A program made the translations under genes and the position numbers. A DNA stretch of 22,009 bases. It comes from a virus. Of the stretch, positions 4,278 through 22,009 are shown piece after piece (within the stretch, counting starts at the first letter, position 1; each line of letters begins with the position of its first letter). The notes beneath the pieces were generated by a model. The model had not been told where the DNA came from. It ran no database searches and was given only the letters and a program-made list of their open reading frames with translations. Location of the stretch: positions 1 to 22,009 of the IMG/VR virus record IMGVR_UViG_3300043446_001084; one strand, 5' to 3'.

Positions 4278-4692
4278 GGTTCCTAATTGGGAATCTGCTC
4301 TCGATGCTTATATCGGCTCCTGCCGAGAAAAGGCGTTTGCGTGGGGTTCATTTGATTGCGTCCGGTTTGCGGATGGCGCTTTTCAGGCTCAGTATGGAAT
4401 CAACCTTTTCCCGTCATTTGATTACGATGATTTGAAATCTGCTCAAAAGGGATTGAGGAAATTCTGCAAGACGCTCGATCTCGCGGCGGCGATCGATCAA
4501 TTCCTTGATCGAAAAGAAAAAGCATTTCTCTCAAGAGGCGATCTGGTATTCCATAATTCGGCGCTTTCCGTGAATGTTGATGGAGTTGGCGGCTCTATTG
4601 GGATATGTTTGGGAACAAAGATTGCGCTCGTCGGCGAGGCATCTTTGCAATTCGATTCTATTGAAAAGGCTGAATTCGGGTGGCGGGTATGA
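4237..4692 (+). CDS. Tail-associated NlpC/P60-like protein (DUF6950 type)
   Basis: This 151-residue protein overlaps the previous gene by 41 bases. The motif FAWGSFDCVRFADGAF (about residues 35-50) places the candidate catalytic cysteine at residue 41, after Phe-Asp as in DUF6950 and other NlpC/P60-related tail peptidases. The later GDLVFHN may hold the histidine partner. Such proteins sit in the tail tip and are thought to cut or locally open peptidoglycan during DNA entry. No strong ribosome-binding site lies before the ATG at 4237 (only AAAGG about 14 bases upstream), so translation is probably coupled. The region downstream of residue 10 has no other ATG that would keep the motif, and the cysteine motif is included under any choice. 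Enzymatic activity is inferred. Confidence 0.7.
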   Translation: MISKPNKLSGVGNKVPNWESALDAYIGSCREKAFAWGSFDCVRFADGAFQAQYGINLFPSFDYDDLKSAQKGLRKFCKTLDLAAAIDQFLDRKEKAFLSRGDLVFHNSALSVNVDGVGGSIGICLGTKIALVGEASLQFDSIEKAEFGWRV

Positions 4693-7607
4693 AGATCAGG
4701 AAATTCCTCCTCGCATCGACATTCCTTGTCGGCTTGACCATTTCAGAACCTGCAAAGGCTGATCCGGTCTCATTGATCGCATCAGGCGCGACGGCGCTCG
4801 GATTTACAGAATTTGCGGCTTTTGTTGGCTCATTCTTTGGTAGATTGGTGGTTACTGCGGGTCTGACGGCGGTTGCCAGTTATCTATCCTCTCAAGATCA
4901 GCCGACAATTCCTGATTATCGAGGGATAACTCAAAGAGAAGAAAACTTCACTGATTCTTTAGCTGTCAGGCAAGTGATCTATGGTCGCGTTATGGTCGGC
5001 GGTCCGATCGTCTATGCCGAAACAACAAATCACAATAATTATCTTCATCTTGTGATTCCGGTCGCGGGGCATGAGATTACAGCCTTCGACAAGATATATT
5101 TCAACGATGATGAATTGACGCTCGATGGCTCAGGCAATGTGACGGCTCCCGCTCAATATGCGGGTAAAGCAAGAATTAAGACATATCTTGGAACAACATC
5201 ACAATCAGCCGATCCTGATTTAATTGCTGAATCAAATGGTCTTTGGACTTCAAATCATAAGCTGACAGGTGTCGCTTATATCTATGCGCGATTGGCATTC
5301 GATCAGGATGCTTTTCCGAATGGTCGTCCTACGATCAAGGCGATTGTAAGAGGCAAAAAGGTTTATGATACTCGAACTGCGACGACAGGATATTCAGCAA
5401 ATCCCGCATTATGCGTTCTTGATTATTTAAGAGATTCAACTTTTGGGTTTGGCGCGACTTTATCAGAGATTAATACAACGACATTCAATGCGGCGGCTAA
5501 TATTTGCGATGAAAATGTTTCTCTCGCGGCGGGTGGAACAGAAAAACGCTATGAATGCCACGGTGTGATTATGAGTGATCGCACTCCTAAATCAGCATTA
5601 GAAGATTTGCTGACATCATGCGGAGGGATGATTTTCTATTCCGGCGGCAAATGGAACATGAATGCCTCGGCATATAATACGCCGACAGTTACGATCACTG
5701 ACAATGATCTTCGCGCTCCGATCAATCTTGTTACTCGTCATTCCAAGAGAGACAATTTCAACATCGTGAAAGGCGTTTTTGTTTCTCCTGATGATGGATG
5801 GCAAGCAACTGATTTTCCGGCTATTAAATCAACGACATTCATCGCCGATGATTATAATATTGAATCTTCATTCGATCTGACTCTGCCATTTACAATCTCA
5901 TCTTCAATGGCGCAGAGATTGGCTAAAATTGCACTTTATCGTCATCGTCAGCAAATGACACTTGAACTGAAATGCAAAATGACTGCATTCAGAATCGAGG
6001 TCGGCGATACAATAATGGTGACGAATACTCGGTATGGATTCAGTTCTAAACCGTTCGAAGTCATCAATTTCAACTTCGCAATCGAAGGAACAAGTGAGGC
6101 TCCTGTATTCGGTGTTGATCTGACGCTGAGAGAAATCTCATCTTCTGTATTTAACTGGAATGCAGAAGAAACGGCAATCGAGCGTGATAATACATCGCTT
6201 CCAAACTATTCCTCGGTAGCAGTTCCGCAAATCACGGCATCTGATGAATTAAGAGCGGTGAATCAGGACGTTGTGACTGTCTTGCTCGTCAATGTATCAA
6301 GCACGAATCCTTTTGTGACTGATTATGAGGTTTCCTATAAGAAACAGAGCGATTCTGTTTATACGGAAGCAAATAAATCGACGAGCGGTAAATATGAAAT
6401 CCTGAAAGTCGAGGATGGTGTTTATTACGATATTCGATCGAGAGCAGTAACATTTCTCGGCGTGAAATCTGACTATCAGACATTAGCTTATCAAGTAATT
6501 GGTAAGACGGCTCCGCCATCGGATGTCACTGGTTTATCAATCAACTCAATTGGTGGCAGTGCTATTCTCCAATGGACTCCGGTCGCCGATCTTGATCTTT
6601 CTCATTATAAGGTTCGCTATTCAGCCTCTACATCGAGCGCAACCTATCAAAATGCGATCGATCTGGTTGATAAAGTCGCGCGTCCGGCAAACTCGGTCAT
6701 CGTCCCATCGAAGCAGGGAACCTATTTCGTCAAGGCTGTCGATAAGCTGAATTATGTTTCGGCGAATCCGGCCTCAGTTGTGCTTCTGACAAATATCTCG
6801 AATGTGAATGATCTGAATGTTGTCGCTACGGTTACGGAAAATCCGGCATTTAGTGGAACCAAAACTTCGGTTGTGAAAACGACTGACGGGGTATCCACTT
6901 GGATTCAATTAGACACGGCAGGATTGTTTGATTCAACTTCCGGCAATTTCGATAGTGCGGGTGGGTTATTCGATGCAGGGGGCGGCACGATTGCCACTTC
7001 CGGCTATTATGAATTTGCCAATTATATCGATCTGACCGAGAAATATACGAGCCGAGTGACGGCAAGTCTGAACAATATCCGTATCGATTACACTGATCTT
7101 TTTGACTCAGCGACGGGCAATTTCGACGATCGATCTGGTAATTTCGACGGCTCGGCAACGGCCTTTGATGATACATCGGTTGCACTTCAGGTAGCTACAA
7201 CGGATGGCGATCCGGCGGGTTCTCCTACATGGTCATCTTGGCAGAATTTCCTTGTCGGCGATTATAGTGCCAGAGCGTTCAAATTCAGGGCTTATCTGAC
7301 ATCATCGAACGGGAATGCTTCCCCATCTATCACTAATCTTTCGGTTAGCGTCGATATGCCGGATCGTGTAATATCTGGAGAAGATATTGTATCAGGCGCG
7401 GGAACTTATACGGTGACATTCTCTCCGGCTTATAAGTCTCTCGATGGGATCGGAATTTCGGCTCAAAATATGGGAACAGGCGACTACTATTCAATAAGTT
7501 CGAAATCAACGACCGGATTCCAGATCGTATTCAGGAATTCGGCGGGAACAGCGGTTTCAAGAACTTTCGATTATGTCGCTAGAGGTTACGGGAAGGTGGT
7601 TGTCTAA
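4689..7607 (+). CDS. Tail tip / host-specificity protein, gpJ-like
   Basis: This 972-residue protein would form the tail tip that contacts the host and carries the fibres. The ATG at 4689 shares ATGA with the previous stop and is preferred to the GTG at 4680. Residues 1-25 look like a Sec signal peptide: KIRK, a hydrophobic core and AKA before Asp-Pro, which is unusual for a virion protein. A second hydrophobic stretch (about residues 30-65) resembles the N-terminal segment of J-like proteins. Then come family features: REENFTDSLAVRQVIYGR, FDKIYFNDDEL, GRPTIKAIVRGKKVYD, NPALCVLDYLRD and a fibronectin-like region near residues 600-680. Two Phe-Asp repeat clusters lie near residues 745-767 and 803-827. 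The stop overlaps the next start as TAATG. Confidence 0.85.
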   Translation: MKIRKFLLASTFLVGLTISEPAKADPVSLIASGATALGFTEFAAFVGSFFGRLVVTAGLTAVASYLSSQDQPTIPDYRGITQREENFTDSLAVRQVIYGRVMVGGPIVYAETTNHNNYLHLVIPVAGHEITAFDKIYFNDDELTLDGSGNVTAPAQYAGKARIKTYLGTTSQSADPDLIAESNGLWTSNHKLTGVAYIYARLAFDQDAFPNGRPTIKAIVRGKKVYDTRTATTGYSANPALCVLDYLRDSTFGFGATLSEINTTTFNAAANICDENVSLAAGGTEKRYECHGVIMSDRTPKSALEDLLTSCGGMIFYSGGKWNMNASAYNTPTVTITDNDLRAPINLVTRHSKRDNFNIVKGVFVSPDDGWQATDFPAIKSTTFIADDYNIESSFDLTLPFTISSSMAQRLAKIALYRHRQQMTLELKCKMTAFRIEVGDTIMVTNTRYGFSSKPFEVINFNFAIEGTSEAPVFGVDLTLREISSSVFNWNAEETAIERDNTSLPNYSSVAVPQITASDELRAVNQDVVTVLLVNVSSTNPFVTDYEVSYKKQSDSVYTEANKSTSGKYEILKVEDGVYYDIRSRAVTFLGVKSDYQTLAYQVIGKTAPPSDVTGLSINSIGGSAILQWTPVADLDLSHYKVRYSASTSSATYQNAIDLVDKVARPANSVIVPSKQGTYFVKAVDKLNYVSANPASVVLLTNISNVNDLNVVATVTENPAFSGTKTSVVKTTDGVSTWIQLDTAGLFDSTSGNFDSAGGLFDAGGGTIATSGYYEFANYIDLTEKYTSRVTASLNNIRIDYTDLFDSATGNFDDRSGNFDGSATAFDDTSVALQVATTDGDPAGSPTWSSWQNFLVGDYSARAFKFRAYLTSSNGNASPSITNLSVSVDMPDRVISGEDIVSGAGTYTVTFSPAYKSLDGIGISAQNMGTGDYYSISSKSTTGFQIVFRNSAGTAVSRTFDYVARGYGKVVV

Positions 7608-15485: not shown

Positions 15486-15798
15486 TTAGCTTCCGTTTCC
15501 ACTTGGATGATTTACCACAAGGAAGCGGCTTTTTCGATAGTTTTGTATGATTGTGATAAGCGGCTTGTCGTTTCGCTTTAGCAAGACGGCTGACATCTGC
15601 CTTTGTCTTGTCTCGGTGGCAGGATTGGTGAGCCAGATCAAGGTTTTCGCCAGAGTCTTCTCCGCCAAGGGCGAGCGGGATGATATGTTCGATTTCCCAT
15701 TTCTCTTGCGAATGAATCTTTTGACCACAGATATGACACTTGCCATTTCGCGCATTGAATATCTCCACTCTTTCTTTTTTTGATATTGATCGTCTCAT
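15421..15798 (-). CDS. HNH endonuclease
   Basis: From the ATG at 15798 the product is 125 residues; this start shares TAATG with the upstream stop and is preferred to a GTG at 15822. It has the complete HNH pattern: a zinc-type CHIC at residues 21-24, WEIEHIIPLALGG with the EH pair at 37-38, ENLDLAHQSCH with Asn 52 and CH at 60-61, then KTKAD. Free-standing HNH proteins of this size in phages are homing-type or nicking nucleases, and some assist DNA packaging when next to terminase genes. Here the neighbours are early genes, so a packaging role is less likely unless the genome is circularly arranged. The basic C-terminal 50 residues may aid DNA binding. Confidence 0.8.
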   Translation of the reverse strand: MRRSISKKERVEIFNARNGKCHICGQKIHSQEKWEIEHIIPLALGGEDSGENLDLAHQSCHRDKTKADVSRLAKAKRQAAYHNHTKLSKKPLPCGKSSKWKRKLNGSLVLRDEGKTRGSSKTDRH

Positions 15799-16574
15799 TA
15801 AACGCCACACATTCCTTCGCACTCATTGATGAACATATTTAATTGTCCCATTTCTTCAATGGTTCTAAAATCTACTTCTTCAAGAGGTTTTAAGGAACGG
15901 TGCATATATTGTTCACCCCGGAATCCAGATTGATTTCTAATTGATCGATCAACTTCAACGGCATCCTTAAATTCATCTGGTGTTAGTGATCTCCATTGAT
16001 CATTTGAATGAAATGGACATCCAATGCAGGAAGATTTAGGAGCAGACCATCCTTTTGATTCCATCCATTTAATACAATCATTTCTGCTCATGCGTTTTTC
16101 AATTAAGGGCCATCTATTTTTAATATATTGAACCCGTGAAGGCTTCATTCTCATAATTTCATCTGTTGAAATTCCGATCCAAACTTCTGCTCCTGATTTT
16201 GGTCTTTTACCATTCATCAATTCAACAATCTTTTTTTGAATCGGACGTAATTTATATTCTGCGGTGCATTGTCTTCTACCCATTGCTTCTTTGCCATTTG
16301 GCATCTTCATAAACCACGGGACAGCCGCAAATCTTTGACCAGTTGTGTTTGTCATAGAAATAATATCAGACCGAAGATTTCCAGCAGAGACAATATAAAT
16401 CGGAAAAGGCAAAGCTGATTTTAGTTTTTCAAGATGATCATAAACCGCTTTTGGCTCCCATTGAGTATCTGAAAAAATCGCACAATCTGGAATTTCGCCT
16501 AATTCACCAGATGCCGCCATAAGAGCAAGAGTAGTTGATTGAACACCAGCACCAAGTGATAAAACTTTAATCAT
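15798..16574 (-). CDS. PP-loop ATP pyrophosphatase / PAPS reductase-like protein
   Basis: The ATG at 16574 (258 residues) sits in an ATGA overlap with the upstream gene and directly precedes IKVLSLGAGVQSTTLALMA, the PP-loop that binds ATP. Further signatures are FSDTQWEP (residues 35-42), the PAPS-reductase-like RRQCTAEYKLRPIQKKI, WIGISTDE, SSCIGCPFHSNDQW and a C-terminal ECEGMCGV. Proteins of this phage family usually carry the same cysteine pairs, and they belong to the adenine nucleotide alpha-hydrolase superfamily, which activates a substrate by adenylation. The substrate is unknown. Sulfur transfer to a nucleobase or RNA, or another adenylation, is possible but not shown. A purely assimilatory PAPS reductase role is unlikely in a phage early operon. 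Confidence 0.75.
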   Translation of the reverse strand: MIKVLSLGAGVQSTTLALMAASGELGEIPDCAIFSDTQWEPKAVYDHLEKLKSALPFPIYIVSAGNLRSDIISMTNTTGQRFAAVPWFMKMPNGKEAMGRRQCTAEYKLRPIQKKIVELMNGKRPKSGAEVWIGISTDEIMRMKPSRVQYIKNRWPLIEKRMSRNDCIKWMESKGWSAPKSSCIGCPFHSNDQWRSLTPDEFKDAVEVDRSIRNQSGFRGEQYMHRSLKPLEEVDFRTIEEMGQLNMFINECEGMCGV

Positions 16575-16933
16575 AATTTCATCTCTGCTCGTTTGGTTGC
16601 CTCTAGGCTTTGCCATTCGCTAAAACGCATTCGAATATATTCTAACTGAACCTTAAGCATCGCGGCTTTGGCTCTCGCCTTAACCATCTGGTCGATATAC
16701 TCAACCCATGACTCGGAAGCCTTAACATTCATTTCGGCCTTTGAAACTGGCATATCGCCGAGTTCAAGCATCTTGCGGGATAGGACCGCACTCTTGCTTT
16801 CTTCCATCAGCGATGCGGCTGAATCGGCATCAACCCATTTCTTAGCGATTATCCGATATTGTTCGCTCAATGGTATTTCATTGTCGTTTATTTTGCTCAT
16901 CACCATTGCTCTTTTTGATTGAAAACCATTCAT
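16571..16933 (-). CDS. Helical early protein, unknown, next to ERF gene
   Basis: This protein of up to 120 residues has two candidate starts. The ATG at 16933 forms an ATGA overlap with the 28-aa ORF upstream. The ATG at 16900 has an AAGAG-like ribosome site 8 bases upstream and gives 109 residues. The product is helical and charged (IPLSEQYRIIAKKWVDADSA, SKSAVLSRKMLELGDMPVSK, MVKARAKAAMLKVQLEYIRM). Similar helical proteins lie beside single-strand annealing genes in phages and may act with them, but I recognise no catalytic motif. Position immediately after ERF and the micropeptide suggests a recombination accessory role (inference). Confidence 0.6.
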   Translation of the reverse strand: MNGFQSKRAMVMSKINDNEIPLSEQYRIIAKKWVDADSAASLMEESKSAVLSRKMLELGDMPVSKAEMNVKASESWVEYIDQMVKARAKAAMLKVQLEYIRMRFSEWQSLEATKRAEMKL

Positions 16934-17016
16934 AGTTTTTTAGCCATTAAATAGATCGAGAGCGCAATAATCGCTAAAACGCTCCCGATCGAGATTGAGA
17001 AATAATAAAGAACCAT
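16930..17016 (-). CDS. 28-aa single-pass membrane micropeptide
   Basis: An ORF of 28 codons fills the apparent gap between the ERF gene and the next gene. Its ATG at 17016-17014 shares TGATG with the ERF stop, and its TGA at 16932-16930 shares ATGA with the next start. The product begins MVLYYFSISIGSVLAIIALS and ends IYLMAKKL, a single hydrophobic span with a lysine pair at the C-terminus. Both junctions match the coupling style of the rest of this operon, which is the main reason to believe it is translated. No family is recognised. It could modulate a host membrane protein or simply be a fortuitous frame. Confidence 0.55.
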   Translation of the reverse strand: MVLYYFSISIGSVLAIIALSIYLMAKKL

Positions 17017-17645
17017 CAAACTACTTCGTCGTAACGCTTATCCCATTCTTCGGAGAGGGCATCGCGCCATGCTTGGGGCCAAACAGAGACTTCGGTCATC
17101 AGAAGGCGTTTTAATTCCTTCAAATCAATCTTCGACTCACAATCTCGAATCATTTGAACTACATCTGTCCATCGCTCAGGTTGCTCTTTTTTCAATGAAT
17201 TACTGGTGCGAACAGGACGGCTATTATCGCGTGGAAACGATGAATCCTTATTGCGATCGATCGATCCTTCACCGTCGTCATCAATCGGGGGCAAAAGAAA
17301 TAATGCCATCAATGAATAGCGACAGCCATAGGTGATCGCCGAAGCGGTTCCTTGGGCATCCTTTTTTGATACAGGAATTTCCAATCGGCTACTCATCGAC
17401 TGACCTGAGATATGCGAGATCGTCGTTATAATCTCGATACAACCGGAATCAGTAAATCGGGAAGGTGCTTGTGTGACGACCAGATCATTCTCTTGCAATG
17501 CGGGTCGAAGCGCATCGATGACAGCCTCAAGCGAGGCGTATCGGTTCTTGAAGTGGGGATTGGTCGAGTCGCGCTTTACGCCAGAAATCTTGCCTTGGAC
17601 TTTGTGCAGTGCAACAATCAGCTTATTGTTTTGAGATTCGGTCAT
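17016..17645 (-). CDS. erf: ERF-family single-strand annealing protein
   Basis: The ATG at 17645 is preferred to the GTG at 17657 because GTGAG lies about 7 bases upstream of it. The 209-residue product has the ERF core at about residues 8-125: LHKVQGKISGVKRDSTNPHF, YASLEAVIDALRPALQENDLVV, then GCIEIITTISHISGQ and GTASAITYGCRYSLMALFLL. ERF proteins anneal complementary DNA strands during phage recombination and replication. A low-complexity linker (about residues 126-155) is followed by a helical C-terminal region of unknown role. The gene overlaps its upstream neighbour by 23 bases. A RusA resolvase on the other side of the control region would complete a recombination pathway. Confidence 0.88.
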   Translation of the reverse strand: MTESQNNKLIVALHKVQGKISGVKRDSTNPHFKNRYASLEAVIDALRPALQENDLVVTQAPSRFTDSGCIEIITTISHISGQSMSSRLEIPVSKKDAQGTASAITYGCRYSLMALFLLPPIDDDGEGSIDRNKDSSFPRDNSRPVRTSNSLKKEQPERWTDVVQMIRDCESKIDLKELKRLLMTEVSVWPQAWRDALSEEWDKRYDEVV

Positions 17646-17808
17646 TGTGTGTCTCACTTTCTTGTGGATAACTCATTTCAATTTTGCTATCTATTTGAAT
17701 TGATTGATGAATTATTAAGTTCCAGTTTTCATCGGAAGGATCGCGAGAATAGTTCGCAATTAATTCTAGCAGGTCGTGAACCATATTCGCCAGTTCAAAA
17801 TAACTCAT
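17623..17808 (-). CDS. Small leader protein of the minus-strand early operon
   Basis: The ATG at 17808 is chosen because AAAGGAG lies 7 bases upstream; the longer frame upstream of it crosses the control region and has no support. The 61-residue product (MSYFELANMVHDLLELIANY, DPSDENWNLIIHQSIQIDSK) is acidic and helical, and ends ETHNDRISKQ. No family is recognised. It is the first gene of the minus-strand early operon. Its coding sequence contains a perfect DnaA-box-like TTATCCACA about 18 bases before the ERF start. Confidence 0.6.
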   Translation of the reverse strand: MSYFELANMVHDLLELIANYSRDPSDENWNLIIHQSIQIDSKIEMSYPQESETHNDRISKQ

Positions 17809-17827
17809 TTTCAGGCTCCTTTCAGCC

Positions 17828-17856
17828 TTTACAACTGACGAATCAGAATTTAATTT
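17828..17856 (+). promoter_or_regulatory. Putative promoter for the rightward early operon
   Basis: TTTACA at 17828-17833 (five of six matches to the sigma-70 -35 consensus) is followed after exactly 17 bases by TAATTT at 17851-17856 (a weak -10, three of six matches). Transcription would begin near 17863, giving a leader of about 26 bases before the start codon at 17889, with AAAGGAG at 17873-17879. Confidence 0.4.
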
Positions 17857-17875
17857 GTTTGAACGGAACTGTAAA
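17847..17875 (-). promoter_or_regulatory. Putative promoter for the leftward early operon
   Basis: On the minus strand TTTACA (plus positions 17875-17870) is followed after exactly 17 bases by TAAATT (17852-17847), four of six matches to a -10. Transcription would start near 17840, with AAAGGAG at 17822-17816 before the start codon at 17808. The -10 element overlaps that of the rightward promoter. Confidence 0.42.
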
Positions 17876-17888
17876 GGAGATAAACGCA

Positions 17889-18242
17889 ATGAGTTTCGTG
17901 GAAGCACTCGACAAAATTATGAAAGTCCAAGAGCGGGATTTATTCCGCACAAATGCCAAGATCACATCGATCGAGGCGGCTCAATCTATATTCCCTAATC
18001 TGCGTGAATTGCATATCGAAATTCTAAGCTATGCAATAAATCAGGGATACAACGGGTTTACAGATATCGATCTCAACCGTCACTTCAAAACAGAAATGTC
18101 CACTTATCGCGCTCGAAGAAGCGAACTGGAGAAGGTTGGATTGATCGTCGATAGCGGTCGGCGAGTGAAATATCCAGAACGCGGGAATAACCGCAGTCAT
18201 ACAGTATTTGTCGCAAAGGAGTTCAAACTTGAAAACGGTTAA
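17889..18242 (+). CDS. Winged-helix DNA-binding protein, early regulator candidate
   Basis: The ATG at 17889 has AAAGGAG 9 bases upstream; the much longer open frame before it runs antisense through the ERF region and is rejected. The 117-residue product has an N-terminal helical part (MSFVEALDKIMKVQERDLFR), then a winged-helix domain. ELHIEILSYAINQGYNGFTD (about residues 40-59) leads to STYRARRSELEKVGLIVDSG (71-90), which reads as recognition helix and first wing strand. SHTVFVAKEF forms the last wing strand. The spacing resembles MarR-like folds. As the first gene of the rightward operon, next to the divergent promoters, it is a natural candidate to bind the inverted repeat there (inference). 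Confidence 0.65.
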   Translation: MSFVEALDKIMKVQERDLFRTNAKITSIEAAQSIFPNLRELHIEILSYAINQGYNGFTDIDLNRHFKTEMSTYRARRSELEKVGLIVDSGRRVKYPERGNNRSHTVFVAKEFKLENG

Positions 18243-18456
18243 GGAATTTTTAACGCAATTAGGTGGACCGAAGAAATTGGGTCAGACACTTGGTCGATCA
18301 CCGAGCAATATCACTTTCTGGGGAAATCAAGGTTCGATCCCGATCGATCACTGGCCTCGATTGATTGAGTTGGCGCATGAGGCACAGATCGAATGCACAG
18401 CCGAGATCATGCTCAGAATGTGCTTGAACAGCCCGAAGAAAGGTGAGACCATCTGA
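18229..18456 (+). CDS. Cro/CI-like HTH protein, carph-isopro-type
   Basis: The start is taken as TTG at 18229, because a perfect AAAGGAG lies at 18215-18221, 7 bases before it; another TTG at 18208 lacks such a site. The 75-residue product has one compact HTH: VKEFLTQLGGPKKLGQTLGR, SPSNITFWGNQGSIPIDHWP, RLIEL. The pattern of a glycine-rich turn, S-x-x-x-I-x-x-W and IP-x-x-HWP is that of the carph-isopro family found in alphaproteobacterial genomes and phages, thought to be Cro-like repressors. It overlaps the upstream gene by 14 bases, so both are made from one transcript. A terminator follows it. Confidence 0.7.
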   Translation: MKTVKEFLTQLGGPKKLGQTLGRSPSNITFWGNQGSIPIDHWPRLIELAHEAQIECTAEIMLRMCLNSPKKGETI

Positions 18457-18478
18457 ATTCTAGGGTTCCTCCCCCACT

Positions 18479-18511
18479 GGTCGGATCGACAACGGTCCGG
18501 CCTCTTTTTTT
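18479..18511 (+). terminator. Strong intrinsic terminator before rusA
   Basis: GGTCGGATCG at 18479-18488 pairs fully with CGGTCCGGCC at 18493-18502 (10 bp, two G-U pairs) around a four-base loop ACAA. TCTTTTTTT follows at 18503-18511. It ends only 1 base before the AAGGAG of the next gene. On the minus strand no T-run follows, so it works in the rightward direction only. Confidence 0.85.
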
Positions 18512-18522
18512 AAGGAGCCGAG

Positions 18523-18894
18523 ATGCGATTTCAGTTTGAGTTTCCGCCGAGCACGAATAATCTTTGGATGCCTGTCAAAGGTAAAGGATTAGTCAAAACA
18601 AAAGAATATCGAGCATGGCAGGACGCGAATGCTTGGATTATCAGGCAACAAATCGGGCTTGTGAAGATCGAAGGACCGTTTGAAGCATATTTTGTTTTCG
18701 AACGACCTGATCGACGCAAACGTGATCTCGATAATCTTCTAAAAGCGAGTTTAGACTGTATCACCAATGCTAGAGTAGTTCATGATGACTACCTATGCCA
18801 AAAGCTAACCGCAGAATGGATCAATCGTTATGGAAGAACTGTCTATTGTGAAATCATCGCAAAATCTGAGAACGGAACTGAAGGATCGATATAA
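18523..18894 (+). CDS. rusA: RusA-type Holliday junction resolvase
   Basis: This 123-residue enzyme cuts Holliday junctions during phage recombination and replication. AAGGAG lies 6 bases before the ATG. The N-terminal FEFPPSTNNLWMPVKGKGL and KTKEYRAWQ are standard RusA features. Acidic residues D68, D70 and D89 with K74 (RRKRDLDNLLKASLD, VVHDD) keep exactly the spacing of the catalytic D70, D72, D91 and K76 of E. coli RusA, offset by two. The protein therefore appears active. Placement after a terminator suggests its expression depends on read-through or a separate signal. The next gene overlaps by 65 bases. Confidence 0.92.
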   Translation: MRFQFEFPPSTNNLWMPVKGKGLVKTKEYRAWQDANAWIIRQQIGLVKIEGPFEAYFVFERPDRRKRDLDNLLKASLDCITNARVVHDDYLCQKLTAEWINRYGRTVYCEIIAKSENGTEGSI

Positions 18895-19429
18895 AGCGGC
18901 AAGGGAGCGGATCGATCGAGGAGCGATCGAGTTACGATACAAGAAAATCCTTGAAGAAAAAGAAAAGCAGTTTGAAAAAGAGTTGCAGGAAAAAATTCAA
19001 CGCGAACGGGAAAAGAAGCGGCTTGAAGAAGAAGTAATCAGAAAATTCAAAATCCATCGAGATTTTATGCTTTTGAAAAGCCTATCTGGTGAGGATGGAG
19101 AAGTGCCACCGAAGAAACTTGAAGAAGAAATCGAGTTCTGGAAACAGGCGCAGAAATACATTCGCGGTCAATCGATACCGGATGCGATCAAGCGGATCGT
19201 CGCTGAGGTATGCCTGAAGCACAATCAGTTCTTGCTCGATATCGAATCCGATCGGCGAACCAAAGAAGCGGTCGCGGCTCGGCAGGAGTTGATGTATCGG
19301 CTCAGGACAGAAACCACTTGGAGCCTTCCAAGGATCGGGCGGTTCCTCGGCAATCGGGATCACACCACAATTCTCCACGGTTTCCACAAGTTTAAGAAAC
19401 AACTGGAATCCGGCGAGGTTTCGCTATAA
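18830..19429 (+). CDS. DnaA domain IV (DNA-binding) protein without ATPase
   Basis: This protein of up to 199 residues has an N-terminal, very charged coiled-coil region (about residues 10-110, many Glu, Lys and Arg) and a C-terminal DnaA domain IV. PDAIKRIVAEVCLKHNQFLL and DRRTKEAVAARQELMYRLRT precede the signature SLPRIGRFLGNRDHTTILHG (about residues 165-184). The signature binds DnaA boxes in bacterial replication initiators. No Walker motifs are present, so it cannot act as an AAA+ initiator itself. It could target phage origin sites, or compete with host DnaA. The ATG at 18830 lacks a clear ribosome site; a GTG at 18848 is an alternative. It overlaps RusA by 65 bases. Confidence 0.8.
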   Translation: MEELSIVKSSQNLRTELKDRYKAARERIDRGAIELRYKKILEEKEKQFEKELQEKIQREREKKRLEEEVIRKFKIHRDFMLLKSLSGEDGEVPPKKLEEEIEFWKQAQKYIRGQSIPDAIKRIVAEVCLKHNQFLLDIESDRRTKEAVAARQELMYRLRTETTWSLPRIGRFLGNRDHTTILHGFHKFKKQLESGEVSL

Positions 19430-19431
19430 GG

Positions 19432-19471
19432 TAAAAAAATAGGCCGACAGAGCGGCAAACTCTATCGGCCT
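19432..19471 (-). terminator. Possible leftward terminator (hairpin 1 of the leader array)
   Basis: Read on the minus strand, AGGCCGA..TCGGCCT (with inner AGAG/CTCT and one mismatch) is followed directly by ATTTTTTTA. This has the form of an intrinsic terminator for leftward RNA. No leftward gene longer than the 28-aa ORF at 20697 lies upstream of it. On the plus strand the same hairpin has no T-run after it. Confidence 0.5.
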
Positions 19472-19546
19472 GAATACCTACGAGTGCGGCGTAGGTCGAG
19501 AACAGGATTATACTGTTCGCCGATCTCCGCTTCAATAGAGGAGATC
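19441..19546 (+). ncRNA. Structured leader: four consecutive hairpins before the initiator gene
   Basis: Four hairpins lie in 106 bases with no coding frame of note. H1: AGGCCGA/TCGGCCT plus AGAG/CTCT with one mismatch, loop at 19453-19459. H2: ACCTACG/CGTAGGT (19476-19482 with 19490-19496), 7-base loop. H3: GAACAG/CTGTTC (19500-19505 with 19513-19518), 7-base loop. H4: GATCTCC/GGAGATC (19522-19528 with 19540-19546), 11-base loop. The GAGGAG ribosome site of the initiator gene (19538-19543, 8 bases before the ATG) lies partly in the 3' arm of H4, so folding could hide it. I do not recognise a known riboswitch, tRNA or sRNA family. Confidence 0.65.
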
Positions 19547-19551
19547 AAATT

Positions 19552-20274
19552 ATGTCACTTCGCATTAAAAACTGGTCGAAGTTTCAACATTTCAAAGATC
19601 GTAAACCGCCTTGGATCAAGTTGTATCGGGATATTCTCGATGACTTGGATTGGCACGATCTCGACCCATTAGCGGCAAAATGCCTTGTTATGATCTGGGT
19701 GATTGCTTCCGAGGATGATGGAAGAATTCCTGATCTTCGGAAATTAGCATTCCGATTGCGTATTCCAGAAAATCAAATGAAATCAATAGTTTCAAAGCTA
19801 TCTCATTGGTTGGAACAAGATGATATCAACGTGATATCAGAACGATATCAAGATGATCTACCAGAGACAGAGAAAGAGAAAGAGAAAGAGAGAGAGAAAG
19901 AGACAGAGGTAGAGAAAGAGAAAGAGGCAAAATATTTGTCGCGTGGGACGCGACTTCCAGAGAATTGGAATCCTCGACCTGAAGATGGATTGAATGAAAT
20001 TGAATTGGCAAAGTTTCGAGACTACTGGAGATCGGTAGCAGGACAGAAGGGAGTGAAACGGGATTGGGATGCTACATGGCGCAACTGGCTCCGCAATTCG
20101 AAGCAATGGGTTGGTGGCTCAAACGGAAAGGATACTGCGCCGGAAACTTTTCGCATTGGGCATCCGAAGGGGCTCGTCAAGTTCGAGCCTGAGCGACCAA
20201 AATTGAGCGACGAACAACTTCGAGAAAGAGCCGAGTTTGTTAAGTCGGCACTCAAGAATTTTGGTATTTCTTAA
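19552..20274 (+). CDS. Replication initiator / replisome organiser-like protein
   Basis: This 240-residue protein begins SLRIKNWSKFQHFKDRKPPWIK, then LYRDILDDLDWHDL and VMIWVIASEDDGRIPDLRKL (about residues 46-65). That is the usual N-terminal winged-helix pattern of phage replication proteins analogous to lambda O or replisome organisers. A Glu/Lys linker (about residues 104-126) separates this from a C-terminal part with FRDYWRSVAGQKGVKRDWDA and TWRNWLR, common to DnaT- and organiser-type proteins that recruit the helicase. Within the gene, three GATATCA repeats and a polypurine tract suggest a replication origin. No helicase or loader gene is visible, so the host DnaB is probably recruited. 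Confidence 0.75.
   Translation: MSLRIKNWSKFQHFKDRKPPWIKLYRDILDDLDWHDLDPLAAKCLVMIWVIASEDDGRIPDLRKLAFRLRIPENQMKSIVSKLSHWLEQDDINVISERYQDDLPETEKEKEKEREKETEVEKEKEAKYLSRGTRLPENWNPRPEDGLNEIELAKFRDYWRSVAGQKGVKRDWDATWRNWLRNSKQWVGGSNGKDTAPETFRIGHPKGLVKFEPERPKLSDEQLRERAEFVKSALKNFGIS
19821..19861 (+). repeat. Phased GATATCA iterons inside the initiator gene
   Basis: GATATCA occurs at 19822-19828, 19833-19839 and 19844-19850, and a degenerate GATCTAC at 19855-19861; the period is exactly 11 bp. The first two copies extend to the 8-bp palindrome TGATATCA. The three exact copies are read in different codon frames (gat atc a, g ata tca, cga tat ca), so the repetition is at the DNA level. Confidence 0.7.
19863..19928 (+). 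repeat. Polypurine GA-rich tract encoding the Glu/Lys linker
   Basis: About 66 bases are almost entirely A and G (repeats of GAGAAA and GAGAGA with very few C or T). They encode the Glu-Lys linker of the initiator, and they begin 1-2 bases after the last iteron-like copy. The tract could ease strand opening or form an unusual DNA structure, or be only a coding repeat prone to slippage. Confidence 0.7.
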
Positions 20275-20302
20275 AAATCGATTAAAGCAAAGGAATCACA
20301 CA

Positions 20303-20614
20303 ATGTGGAAATCAAGACCAGAAGCATCGACGAGCAAACAGATGGCATACACGAACACAGGTTCGCTTTCAAAGAACTTGAAAAAAGAACAAGAGAAGCA
20401 TCCAGATATGCGCGGTCCTGCGACAATTATCTGTCCTCATTGCAATGCAACAAATGAATATTGGCTGAGTGGATGGTTCAAAATCGGTCGCGATTCGGCT
20501 CGTTTCATCAGCCTTGCCTTCCGACCGAAGGAAGAAAAGCCTGAGTCGAACAGCGGTCAGCAACTGGCAGACAAACGGTTTATGCGGCGCGATGACGACG
20601 ACATAGATTTCTAA
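20303..20614 (+). CDS. Unknown protein with CxxC and SSB-like acidic tail
   Basis: The ATG at 20303 is chosen over the longer frame from 20237 because AAAGGAA lies about 10 bases upstream and the extension overlaps the initiator. The 103-residue product has a lysine-rich N-terminus and one ICPHCNATNEYWLSGWFKIG segment with a CxxC (about residues 44-47). The middle is RDSARFISLAFRPK, and the tail ends RRDDDDIDF. The last residues resemble the acidic C-terminal tip of single-stranded DNA-binding proteins (DDDIPF), which binds replication partners. The CxxC is a single pair, so metal binding would need a partner or dimer. Not recognised as a known SSB. Located in the replication operon, a role there is likely (inference). 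Confidence 0.6.
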   Translation: MWKSRPEASTSKQMAYTNTGSLSKNLKKEQEKHPDMRGPATIICPHCNATNEYWLSGWFKIGRDSARFISLAFRPKEEKPESNSGQQLADKRFMRRDDDDIDF

Positions 20615-20697
20615 AAGATAATCCAGTAGGATAATAAAACCGCCATCAGGAAACTGAATCCGACGAACTCGATAGTTGCTTCTAAAAGTTTGAACAT
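20611..20697 (-). CDS. 28-aa membrane micropeptide on the opposite strand
   Basis: A minus-strand ORF runs from ATG at 20697-20695 to TAG at 20613-20611. The product begins MFKLLEATIEFVGFSFLMAV and ends LLSYWIIF, one hydrophobic span after a short charged start. A perfect AAAGGAG lies 7 bases upstream of the ATG. It overlaps the end of the rightward gene by 4 bases. The perfect ribosome-binding site at ideal spacing argues for translation. No promoter was recognised for it. The 139-base gap between 20614 and 20754 is otherwise only explained by regulatory sequence. Confidence 0.6.
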   Translation of the reverse strand: MFKLLEATIEFVGFSFLMAVLLSYWIIF

Positions 20698-20753
20698 GGT
20701 CGATCTCCTTTGATGTGAGCAGACTAATTCAAAGAAGTTAAAAAAGGGTTACG

Positions 20754-21401
20754 ATGCAGATCACGGTAAAATCAAATATCGACATTCTGTCTCGGCAGAT
20801 TCGATCCTATCGCAATCAAATTCCTCAAGCGACTGCGGCGGCATTGACCAAGACAGCCTTCGATATTCGGCAGGAGATCGTTCAGAACACATGGCCTCGA
20901 TCGGTTACGGTTCGCAATTCAAGATTCATGAACGCGGCTCTGCGGGTAAAGAACGCGACAAAGAGGATGCTGACTGCCTCGATATTCGACAGTCTGAGCC
21001 GGAACTATCTGGCTCGGCTTGAATCATCAGGCACCAAGACTCCGCTCGGAAACAATATCGCTATTCCTGCTCGGGATGTTGAAGGATTGATTCGTGGCGG
21101 CGGTGGAGCGGTCAAAAAAGCCTATAAACCGCGTAATCTGCTGAATAAGAACCGTTTCTTTAGAACGACTCTCAAATCCGGCATGGATGCGATCGTTGAA
21201 CGGCCGGCAGGGAAAGAGGCGGGTATTCGCAAGACAAACAGGCTCAAGAGAGGGCCGTTGAAGGTTTGGTATCTCTTGGAGCCAAAGGCACACATTCCGA
21301 AACTGTTCCCATTCTATGAGGCGGCAAGACGGGTTGTCGATCGTCGCTTTGCTTTGAATTTTCGCAATGCCTTCCGCCGAGCAGTGATGACAAGACGATG
21401 A
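20754..21401 (+). CDS. Minor tail protein Z-like / tail completion protein
   Basis: This 215-residue basic protein begins MQITVKSNIDILSRQIRSYR, followed by NQIPQATAAALTKTAFDIRQ, and has many Arg and Lys throughout (KKAYKPRNLLNKNRFFRTTL, ending FRRAVMTRR). This matches the pattern of the prophage minor tail protein Z family (lambda gpZ type), which helps finish the tail or its connection to the head. In lambda Z lies just before U, V and G, but here it lies after the replication genes and away from the other tail genes. AAGGG is about 6 bases upstream. The stop overlaps the next start as ATGA. Family call by pattern only. Confidence 0.6.
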   Translation: MQITVKSNIDILSRQIRSYRNQIPQATAAALTKTAFDIRQEIVQNTWPRSVTVRNSRFMNAALRVKNATKRMLTASIFDSLSRNYLARLESSGTKTPLGNNIAIPARDVEGLIRGGGGAVKKAYKPRNLLNKNRFFRTTLKSGMDAIVERPAGKEAGIRKTNRLKRGPLKVWYLLEPKAHIPKLFPFYEAARRVVDRRFALNFRNAFRRAVMTRR

Positions 21402-21958
21402 TCCACGAACAAGAACGGGCAAAATATAAGAGAATGTGGGATCAGCCGGAATATCGCGGCTTCTCTCCTGCCGAGCAGATCGTCGGCATTGCTCATTCAA
21501 TGTTCAAGAAATACGGAAGCATTGGAACGCTGATCGACTTCGGCTCAGGAACAGGCAGAGCATCATGGCGCTTCCATGATCTAGGGCATGAAGTCACTAT
21601 GGTCGACTTCGCGCCGAATGCGGTCGAGGTCGAAGGGATAGACTTCATCGACTCATGCCTCTGGCATCTTCCGTCCTATCTCAAAGCACAGAATGGATTC
21701 TGCTCGGATGTGATGGAGCATATCCCGACCGAGATGGTCAGCCAGACGCTCGACTGTATCCACCATGCAACGACAGACCTGATGCTGTTTCAAATTGCTT
21801 TAACGCCTGACTCCTGCGGTCAGTTGATTGGAGAGACGCTCCATCTCACGCTATGGACAGAGAGCCAGTGGCGGAAGGAACTCAACACCAGATGGACAGA
21901 ACTGCACACTGAAACAAACGGCTACAATCTCCTGTATCTAGGGAGATCAAACCATTGA
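21398..21958 (+). CDS. Class I SAM-dependent methyltransferase
   Basis: This 186-residue protein starts in an ATGA overlap with the Z-like gene. Motif I is LIDFGSGTGRAS (residues 45-56), which binds S-adenosylmethionine; acidic D70 follows in VTMVDFAPNAVEVEG. Later comes FCSDVMEHIPTEMVSQTLDC, with the D-V-M-E-H-I-P pattern of the methyltransferase motif IV region. No DNA methyltransferase target motif (such as DPPY or NPPY) is seen, so the substrate is unknown: a small molecule, RNA or protein are all possible. The sequence ends GRSNH 51 bases from the window edge. It is complete at both ends. Confidence 0.8.
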   Translation: MIHEQERAKYKRMWDQPEYRGFSPAEQIVGIAHSMFKKYGSIGTLIDFGSGTGRASWRFHDLGHEVTMVDFAPNAVEVEGIDFIDSCLWHLPSYLKAQNGFCSDVMEHIPTEMVSQTLDCIHHATTDLMLFQIALTPDSCGQLIGETLHLTLWTESQWRKELNTRWTELHTETNGYNLLYLGRSNH

Positions 21959-22009
21959 GACCCCTATCGCGGGTCCTTCCACGGGTTTTGTATGCGGGTA
22001 TCGCGCGAC
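21959..22009. other. Terminal stretch with short repeats, no gene seen
   Basis: The last 51 bases hold no recognisable ORF. GACCC/GGGTC (21959-21963 with 21971-21975) form a 5-bp hairpin with no T-run. TATCGCG is repeated at 21965-21971 and 21999-22005. The stretch is richer in G and C than its surroundings. It may be the start of a packaging site or a terminase region, but nothing here proves it. Confidence 0.3.

Follow-up and report, generated by a model that had tools for sequence, protein, structure and literature searches.

An 11-bp-phased palindrome array inside a phage initiator gene: a candidate replication origin whose iteron class follows one initiator residue

Introduction

Replication origins that lie inside the gene for their own initiator are already known. 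In phage lambda, ori-lambda consists of iterons and a biased tract in the middle of gene O and is bound by the initiator; each iteron is an imperfect inverted repeat about 19 bp long (18-19), an AT-rich tract accompanies the set, and in the O proteins of Stx phages extra iterons lengthen the protein, by 13 aa (PMC7466680). The origin of pSK41 lies centrally within rep (PMC5703833). Initiators of the RepA_N type have a DnaD-like winged-helix N-terminal domain, semi-palindromic iterons with inverted repeats converging on a poly-A tract, and a C-terminal domain that varies by host (PMC7145576). For mycobacteriophage repA, an internal origin was considered likely, and no repeated motifs were identified in the regions examined (PMC7157519).

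The sequence analyzed here is IMG/VR record IMGVR_UViG_3300043446_001084, a 22,009-bp virus contig (positions 1 to 22,009; hereafter the window). Sequence comparison and analogy make it very probable that a repeat array and an adjoining purine tract inside an initiator gene of the window together form the replication origin of the phage, with the architecture of lambda and pSK41. As in lambda O, iterons and a biased tract occur in the middle of the initiator gene, and complete relatives have the order cro, O, helicase loader, nin. The array is conserved at the DNA level, and its binding by the window initiator is what the residue-14 code described below would predict. Unlike lambda, the window has palindromes of 8 bp that recur every 11 bp, a 40% GC tract rich in purines, and no detectable O sequence homology. 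The window has a repeat array within the initiator gene, a candidate for an origin placed as in pSK41, and differs from the RepA_N initiators (pSK41, pTZ2162) in lacking PF06970, in its 8-bp palindromes at 11-bp steps, and in having an added purine tract and a DnaT-like C-terminal domain. The RepA-like initiators of mycobacteriophages have a C-terminal domain homologous to that of the window protein, whereas their N-terminal domain is unmatched. Iodobacter phage phiPLPE gp04, the Cylindrospermopsis phage Cr-LKS3 replication protein O, and Xanthomonas phage PBR31 gp04 belong to the same family and contain the same embedded array, which is annotated in none of the three records; the phiPLPE genome paper describes other repeats only (PMC3391216). 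No publication naming the origin of this family, nor this variant of the arrangement or its residue code, was found in the literature searched, a search outside which most subscription journals lie.

Results

A phased palindrome array and a purine tract in the window

Three GATATCA heptamers, 11 bp apart, read in three frames and extended in two cases to full palindromes, had been predicted from the sequence, and all of these particulars hold. The heptamers begin on the + strand at 19822, 19833, and 19844, a step of exactly 11 bp, and their offsets from the start codon at 19552 (270, 281, and 292) place them in codon phases 0, 2, and 1. The gene and its embedded elements are as follows.

19552..20274, + strand: initiator gene, 240 aa, encoding a predicted N-terminal winged-helix domain, a low-complexity linker, and a C-terminal DnaT-like domain
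19552..19851, + strand: N-terminal DNA-binding domain, predicted winged helix, codons 1-100 (AF2 model, fold comparison)
19591..19593, + strand: Phe14 codon, for the residue after QH in the N-terminal domain, predicting iteron class across the family
19821..19828, no strand assigned: iteron 1, TGATATCA, full palindrome (direct sequence)
19832..19839, no strand assigned: iteron 2, TGATATCA, full palindrome (heptamer bases each kept in 54-55 of 55 relatives)
19843..19850, no strand assigned: iteron 3, CGATATCA (direct sequence)
19854..19857, + strand: fourth site, half-site TGAT, in the 11-bp register (19855 = 19822 + 33; bases each kept in 50-54 of 55 relatives)
19863..19927, + strand: purine-rich tract, 65 bases, KEKEKE-coding, candidate opening or loading region (GAGNNA pattern kept in 55 relatives)
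19942..20109, + strand: C-terminal DnaT-like domain, codons 131-186, DYW...DW.ATWRNW (PF17948, tblastn)

Among the heptamers of the 22-kb window, GATATCA alone occurs three times at one fixed step of 8-15 bp. Sixty windows simulated with a first-order Markov model contained no heptamer with three copies at an 11-bp step; the pattern exceeds what chance would give. When codons 89-104 were redrawn synonymously, three GATATCA copies arose in 7 of 20,000 trials, and the frozen wobble positions described below uphold the original argument that protein repetition is not the cause. The degenerate fourth copy is present in phase as the TGAT half-site, and the purine-rich tract follows the array as described: purines make up 95% of its 60-mer at 19865, only 11 of 21,949 windows reach this level on either strand, and the sole purine or pyrimidine run of at least 18 bases in the window (19869-19903) is also here. 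The likeness to lambda that had been drawn from these features is sound for a repeat array inside an initiator gene, and complete relatives add a lambda-like gene order. The likeness does not extend to an easily melted segment, since no adjacent AT-rich unwinding region of the lambda kind was found; low duplex stability of the 40% GC tract reaches only the 94th percentile, and the least stable 60-mer of the initiator gene begins at about 19767, upstream of the array.

The array is conserved as DNA

Selection of relatives by protein similarity alone gave 147 F-type genes, reduced to 55 by redundancy removal. All three sites are present within one mismatch in 54 of the 55, and, as the original prediction had anticipated for homologs, synonymous sites are frozen within the iterons and free between them. 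Site bases are nearly invariant across the relatives and spacer bases vary. At most iteron codons the z-score for wobble homogeneity is 16-49, and at the CAA codon it is 11; at two spacer codons the values are 1.3 and -1.4, and the N-domain background, which includes the effect of shared ancestry, has a mean of 2.3 and a maximum of 12.6. The codon before the second ATA may encode V, L, T, A, M, or P, and its last base is G in 55 of 55 genes; likewise, the last base of the codon before TAT is always A in these relatives.

The array also moves relative to the reading frame and changes in extent. In two loci (L096 and L198), it lies in a different codon phase and encodes a different peptide, WLISERYQDDINLIQK. 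One gene (L122) has 33 extra bp, corresponding to three more units, L045 and its relatives have two additional sites, and a further array lies close to codon 30 in four loci (L101, L113, L166, and L191). A search of viral contigs by DNA pattern alone matched at least 120 contigs, and among the matches listed, the pattern lies in the initiator family in all fetched contigs except L123, L150, L151, and L178. The tract is similarly indifferent to what it encodes: (GAGACA)n encodes ETETE in 120 genes and RDRDR in four loci, and other forms are (GAGAA)n, read as EKRREE, GAGTAA repeats, read as SEKSKS, and AATAAG repeats, with TETETE and KEKEKE also found. An automated measure of the purine tract took the upstream array in many TGCTAGCA genes, such that its class mean of 0.67 understates the tract. 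Hundreds of environmental phages retain the DNA pattern despite changed protein text. Frozen wobble positions at the sites, free spacers, frame shifts, and the various readings of the tract argue, at the level of sequence comparison, that selection acts on the DNA. An exception to the presence of the array is L619, an F-type initiator with an intact N-terminal domain and no array, whose origin may lie elsewhere.

Residue 14 of the initiator predicts the iteron class

In Iodobacter phage phiPLPE and phage ctXG6705, TGCTAGCA-type sites replace TGATATCA, again 11 bp apart and with purines downstream of them. phiPLPE and Cr-LKS3 are of the TGCTAGCA class, and PBR31, like the window, is of the TGATATCA class. 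Most of the matches listed in a search with the TGCTAGCA pattern belong to homologous genes, where the sites occupy codon phases 0 and 2; a related-locus search with phiPLPE gp04 as query confirmed no relatives. The change between classes, from TGAT/ATCA to TGCT/AGCA, is symmetric, as expected for a true palindromic site.

Residue 14 of the N-terminal domain is the sole alignment column with perfect association to iteron class. Phe occurs with TGATATCA in 173 cases and no exception (173:0), and Tyr with TGCTAGCA in 106:0. After thinning to 75% identity, the counts are 36:0 for Phe/TGATATCA and 53:0 for Tyr/TGCTAGCA, and no other column exceeds 0.888. Even where TGCTAGCA proteins share as much as 62-72% identity with TGATATCA proteins, the rule holds (L403, L021, L448, and L540). 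Among 26 further proteins less than 90% identical to the earlier ones, the 25 with sites all fit, the one without sites being L619. In a 97-row tree, the best tree has eight class changes and well-supported branches force only one, the small number of forced switches being due to the shortness of the N-terminal domain. The residue-14 code, and the near-universal presence of the initiator at the array, point to the N-terminal domain as the predicted binder of its own embedded sites; residue 14 may act indirectly. The balance of this evidence tilts slightly toward a large family of environmental phages with a self-contained initiator-plus-origin cassette in which a single Phe/Tyr position would set the working iteron, TGAT/ATCA or TGCT/AGCA, with the pair switched jointly and repeatedly.

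Two further patterns were seen among the relatives. Sites of the type GTATATAC/GTCTAGAC, again stepped by 11 bp, may represent a third iteron class in three Y-type loci (L520, L521, and L523). In six others (L390, L493, L495, L496, L502, and L508), a second TGCTAGCA array occurs earlier, at codons ~62-70, in the part of the gene that encodes the wHTH, and the DNA-binding domain itself is thus partly encoded over iterons.

The initiator combines a predicted winged-helix domain with exchangeable C-terminal domains

The initiator matches phrog_26426 (replication protein) in its N-terminal part with E 1.3e-17 and phrog_3992 (primosomal protein) with E 1.8e-12, and its C-terminal part also matches phrog_1408 (primosomal or initiation). 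The N- and C-terminal domains of the AF2 model are confident, with pLDDT of about 86-96 for residues 1-90, and the low-confidence linker coincides with the purine tract. By VIA, the N-domain model resembles the RepA_N initiators 4pql, 4pt7, 4pta, and 5kbj, one of which has DNA, and the DnaD N-domains 2vn2 and 2v79, with Z 5.5-6.0 in both comparisons, a level that LexA equals. Foldseek of the model against the PDB gave no match at E 0.001, hmmsearch of an N-domain profile against PDB sequences gave chance matches only, and tblastn of the N-domain found no plasmid relative. A Pfam search of the window initiator returned no significant family, homology to the O protein family was not found, and PF06970 (RepA_N) had no matches in 24 family members at E 0.1. 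The protein had been called O-like in the original prediction, a description that is apt for an analog and not for a homolog, the model resembling instead the RepA_N and DnaD winged helices.

PF17948 (DnaT) matches 6 of 24 relatives, the best at 2.2e-5, and does not match the window protein itself. Residues 130-206 of the window protein match Mycobacterium RepA-like initiators by tblastn, with 42-44% identity. Unrelated C-terminal domains are found downstream of the N-terminal domain and array in relatives; the L006 protein is 88% identical to that of the window over residues 1-104 and unrelated beyond.

Gene neighborhood

The initiator gene is present in 189 of 193 clustered loci and is the sole near-universal gene around the array. 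The complete relatives Cr-LKS3, phiPLPE, and ctEw122 have a lambda-like order of cro, O-like gene, DnaC or helicase, and NinB, with not every gene present in each. The neighbors of the window initiator are only RusA and the following two proteins.

18830..19429, + strand: protein with DnaA domain IV (PF08299, E 3.1e-16), found in 6 of 193 non-redundant loci
20303..20614, + strand: SSB-like protein (PHROG 7364, E 1.3e-8), a replication-module neighbor downstream of the initiator

The upstream gene had been correctly recognized as encoding a DnaA domain IV, and had been offered in support of an origin; it lends none, given its presence in 6 of 193 loci. Because it is not conserved with the array, sequence comparison indicates that it is probably not part of the array system, and we rejected it as a partner, with no DnaA box nearby. 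No DnaA boxes of an oriC-type origin occur at the array, the single TTATCCACA-like box in 17000-22009 being at 17663, 2.2 kb away.

The early region of the window also contains a phosphoadenosine phosphosulfate reductase-like gene (15798-16616, - strand; PHROG 424, E 1.9e-47). An ERF-type single-strand annealing gene is found at 17016-17657 (- strand); 78 of 193 loci have a member of its cluster close to the initiator.

Discussion

Taking lambda O and pSK41 RepA as models, we propose that the N-terminal winged helix would bind the phased palindromes of 8 bp, which recur once per helical turn, with a nucleoprotein complex built on a single face of the DNA. Residue 14 would distinguish TGAT/ATCA from TGCT/AGCA half-sites. 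The complex may then open the adjacent strand-asymmetric purine tract or hand it over, presented single-stranded, and the swappable C-terminal domain, DnaT-like in the window, could recruit a host or phage helicase loader. Several observations count against the origin reading: the GC skew, a tract that is not markedly AT-rich, the array-less L619, and the single forced class switch. In four complete relatives, GC skew gives no pointer to the array and follows gene strand, and its minima lie away from the array except, loosely, in PBR31 (301 versus 1470) and ct2t2046 (detrended, 33826 versus 33405).

The strongest rival is an intragenic operator at which a regulator, either the initiator or a ribbon-helix-helix protein, represses or pauses the replication operon while replication starts elsewhere. 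We regard this as improbable. Outside phages, 11-bp-phased TGATATCA arrays do sit upstream of genes, including many Lachnospiraceae promoters, and some are near RHH or ParA genes: L123 and L151 have an RHH_1 protein (PF01402, E 6.9e-5), and L178 adjoins an RHH-like protein. The phage array, however, is ~270 bp within the gene and not at a promoter, it has only the initiator conserved beside it and no RHH or other regulator gene, and its class tracks a residue of that initiator; an operator would also leave the attached purine tract unexplained. A structured RNA or nut-like antitermination signal in the early transcript has still less in its favor. Antitermination sites are established in the early operons of lambdoid phages, and neighboring palindromes could pair, with weakly predicted folding (z of -2.0 for the array and -3.8 for array plus tract); a fold of L483, calculated on coordinates outside the array, was left out. 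But whenever identical palindromes stand in an array, such folding results; the non-palindromic copies TGCTTGCA and TGCTATCA disrupt the pairing with no compensating change and yet preserve the 11-bp spacing, and the residue-14 code would remain unexplained.

Least credible of all are two readings that we place on a par. According to one, the sites arise incidentally from a conserved peptide, DDINVISERYQDD, and a charged TETETE or KEKEKE linker grown by slippage. The peptide is indeed similar in many relatives, and slippage could lengthen a simple repeat such as the tract; this reading is already contradicted by wobble positions that vary between the sites and are frozen within them, by arrays in other frames that encode other peptides, and by the identical (GAGACA)n that four loci read as RDRDRD. 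According to the other, the array is a recombination site for module exchange, where C-terminal domains swap, and unrelated C-terminal domains do follow the N-terminal domain and array, as in L006. Exchange at an origin that lies inside an initiator gene is expected anyway, as in lambdoid O genes, and on its own it would require no 11-bp phasing and no joint change with residue 14.

If the array and tract are the origin, the origins of mostly uncultured phages could be read straight from sequence, and a one-residue specificity code for replication origins would be readable from metagenomes. It would be a natural, apparently repeatedly switched protein-DNA code, in which Phe or Tyr goes with A:T or C:G in both half-sites. 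A DNA element would then have left its footprint in these initiators as their common TETETE/KEKEKE linker.

Similar repeats occur in other settings. In many Lachnospiraceae and other Firmicutes (L203, L205, L213, L236, L242, L281, and others), TTGACA is followed by TGATATCA-type sites in 11-bp steps just before a gene starting MEEKVLNKKKNGM, and these arrays are a conserved promoter-operator of an unrelated system. In GC-rich isolate prophage or plasmid sequence (L123, 2500-3300; L151, 1300-2450), a ParA-like gene and the RHH_1 protein lie downstream of TGATATCA repeats, which are possibly a partition operator. L211 (Aeromonas tecta, NZ_CDCA01000009) has an 11-bp unit, GATATCAAAGC/GATATCAGAGC, repeated head to tail at least 15 times at about 4585-4770, and within the extent of the search this repeat is not part of the initiator family. 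Limnohabitans phage DC33 (PQ492659) is a 39-kb circular genome with a tailed-phage-like early region, and its recorded placement in the Inoviridae looks like a misassignment.
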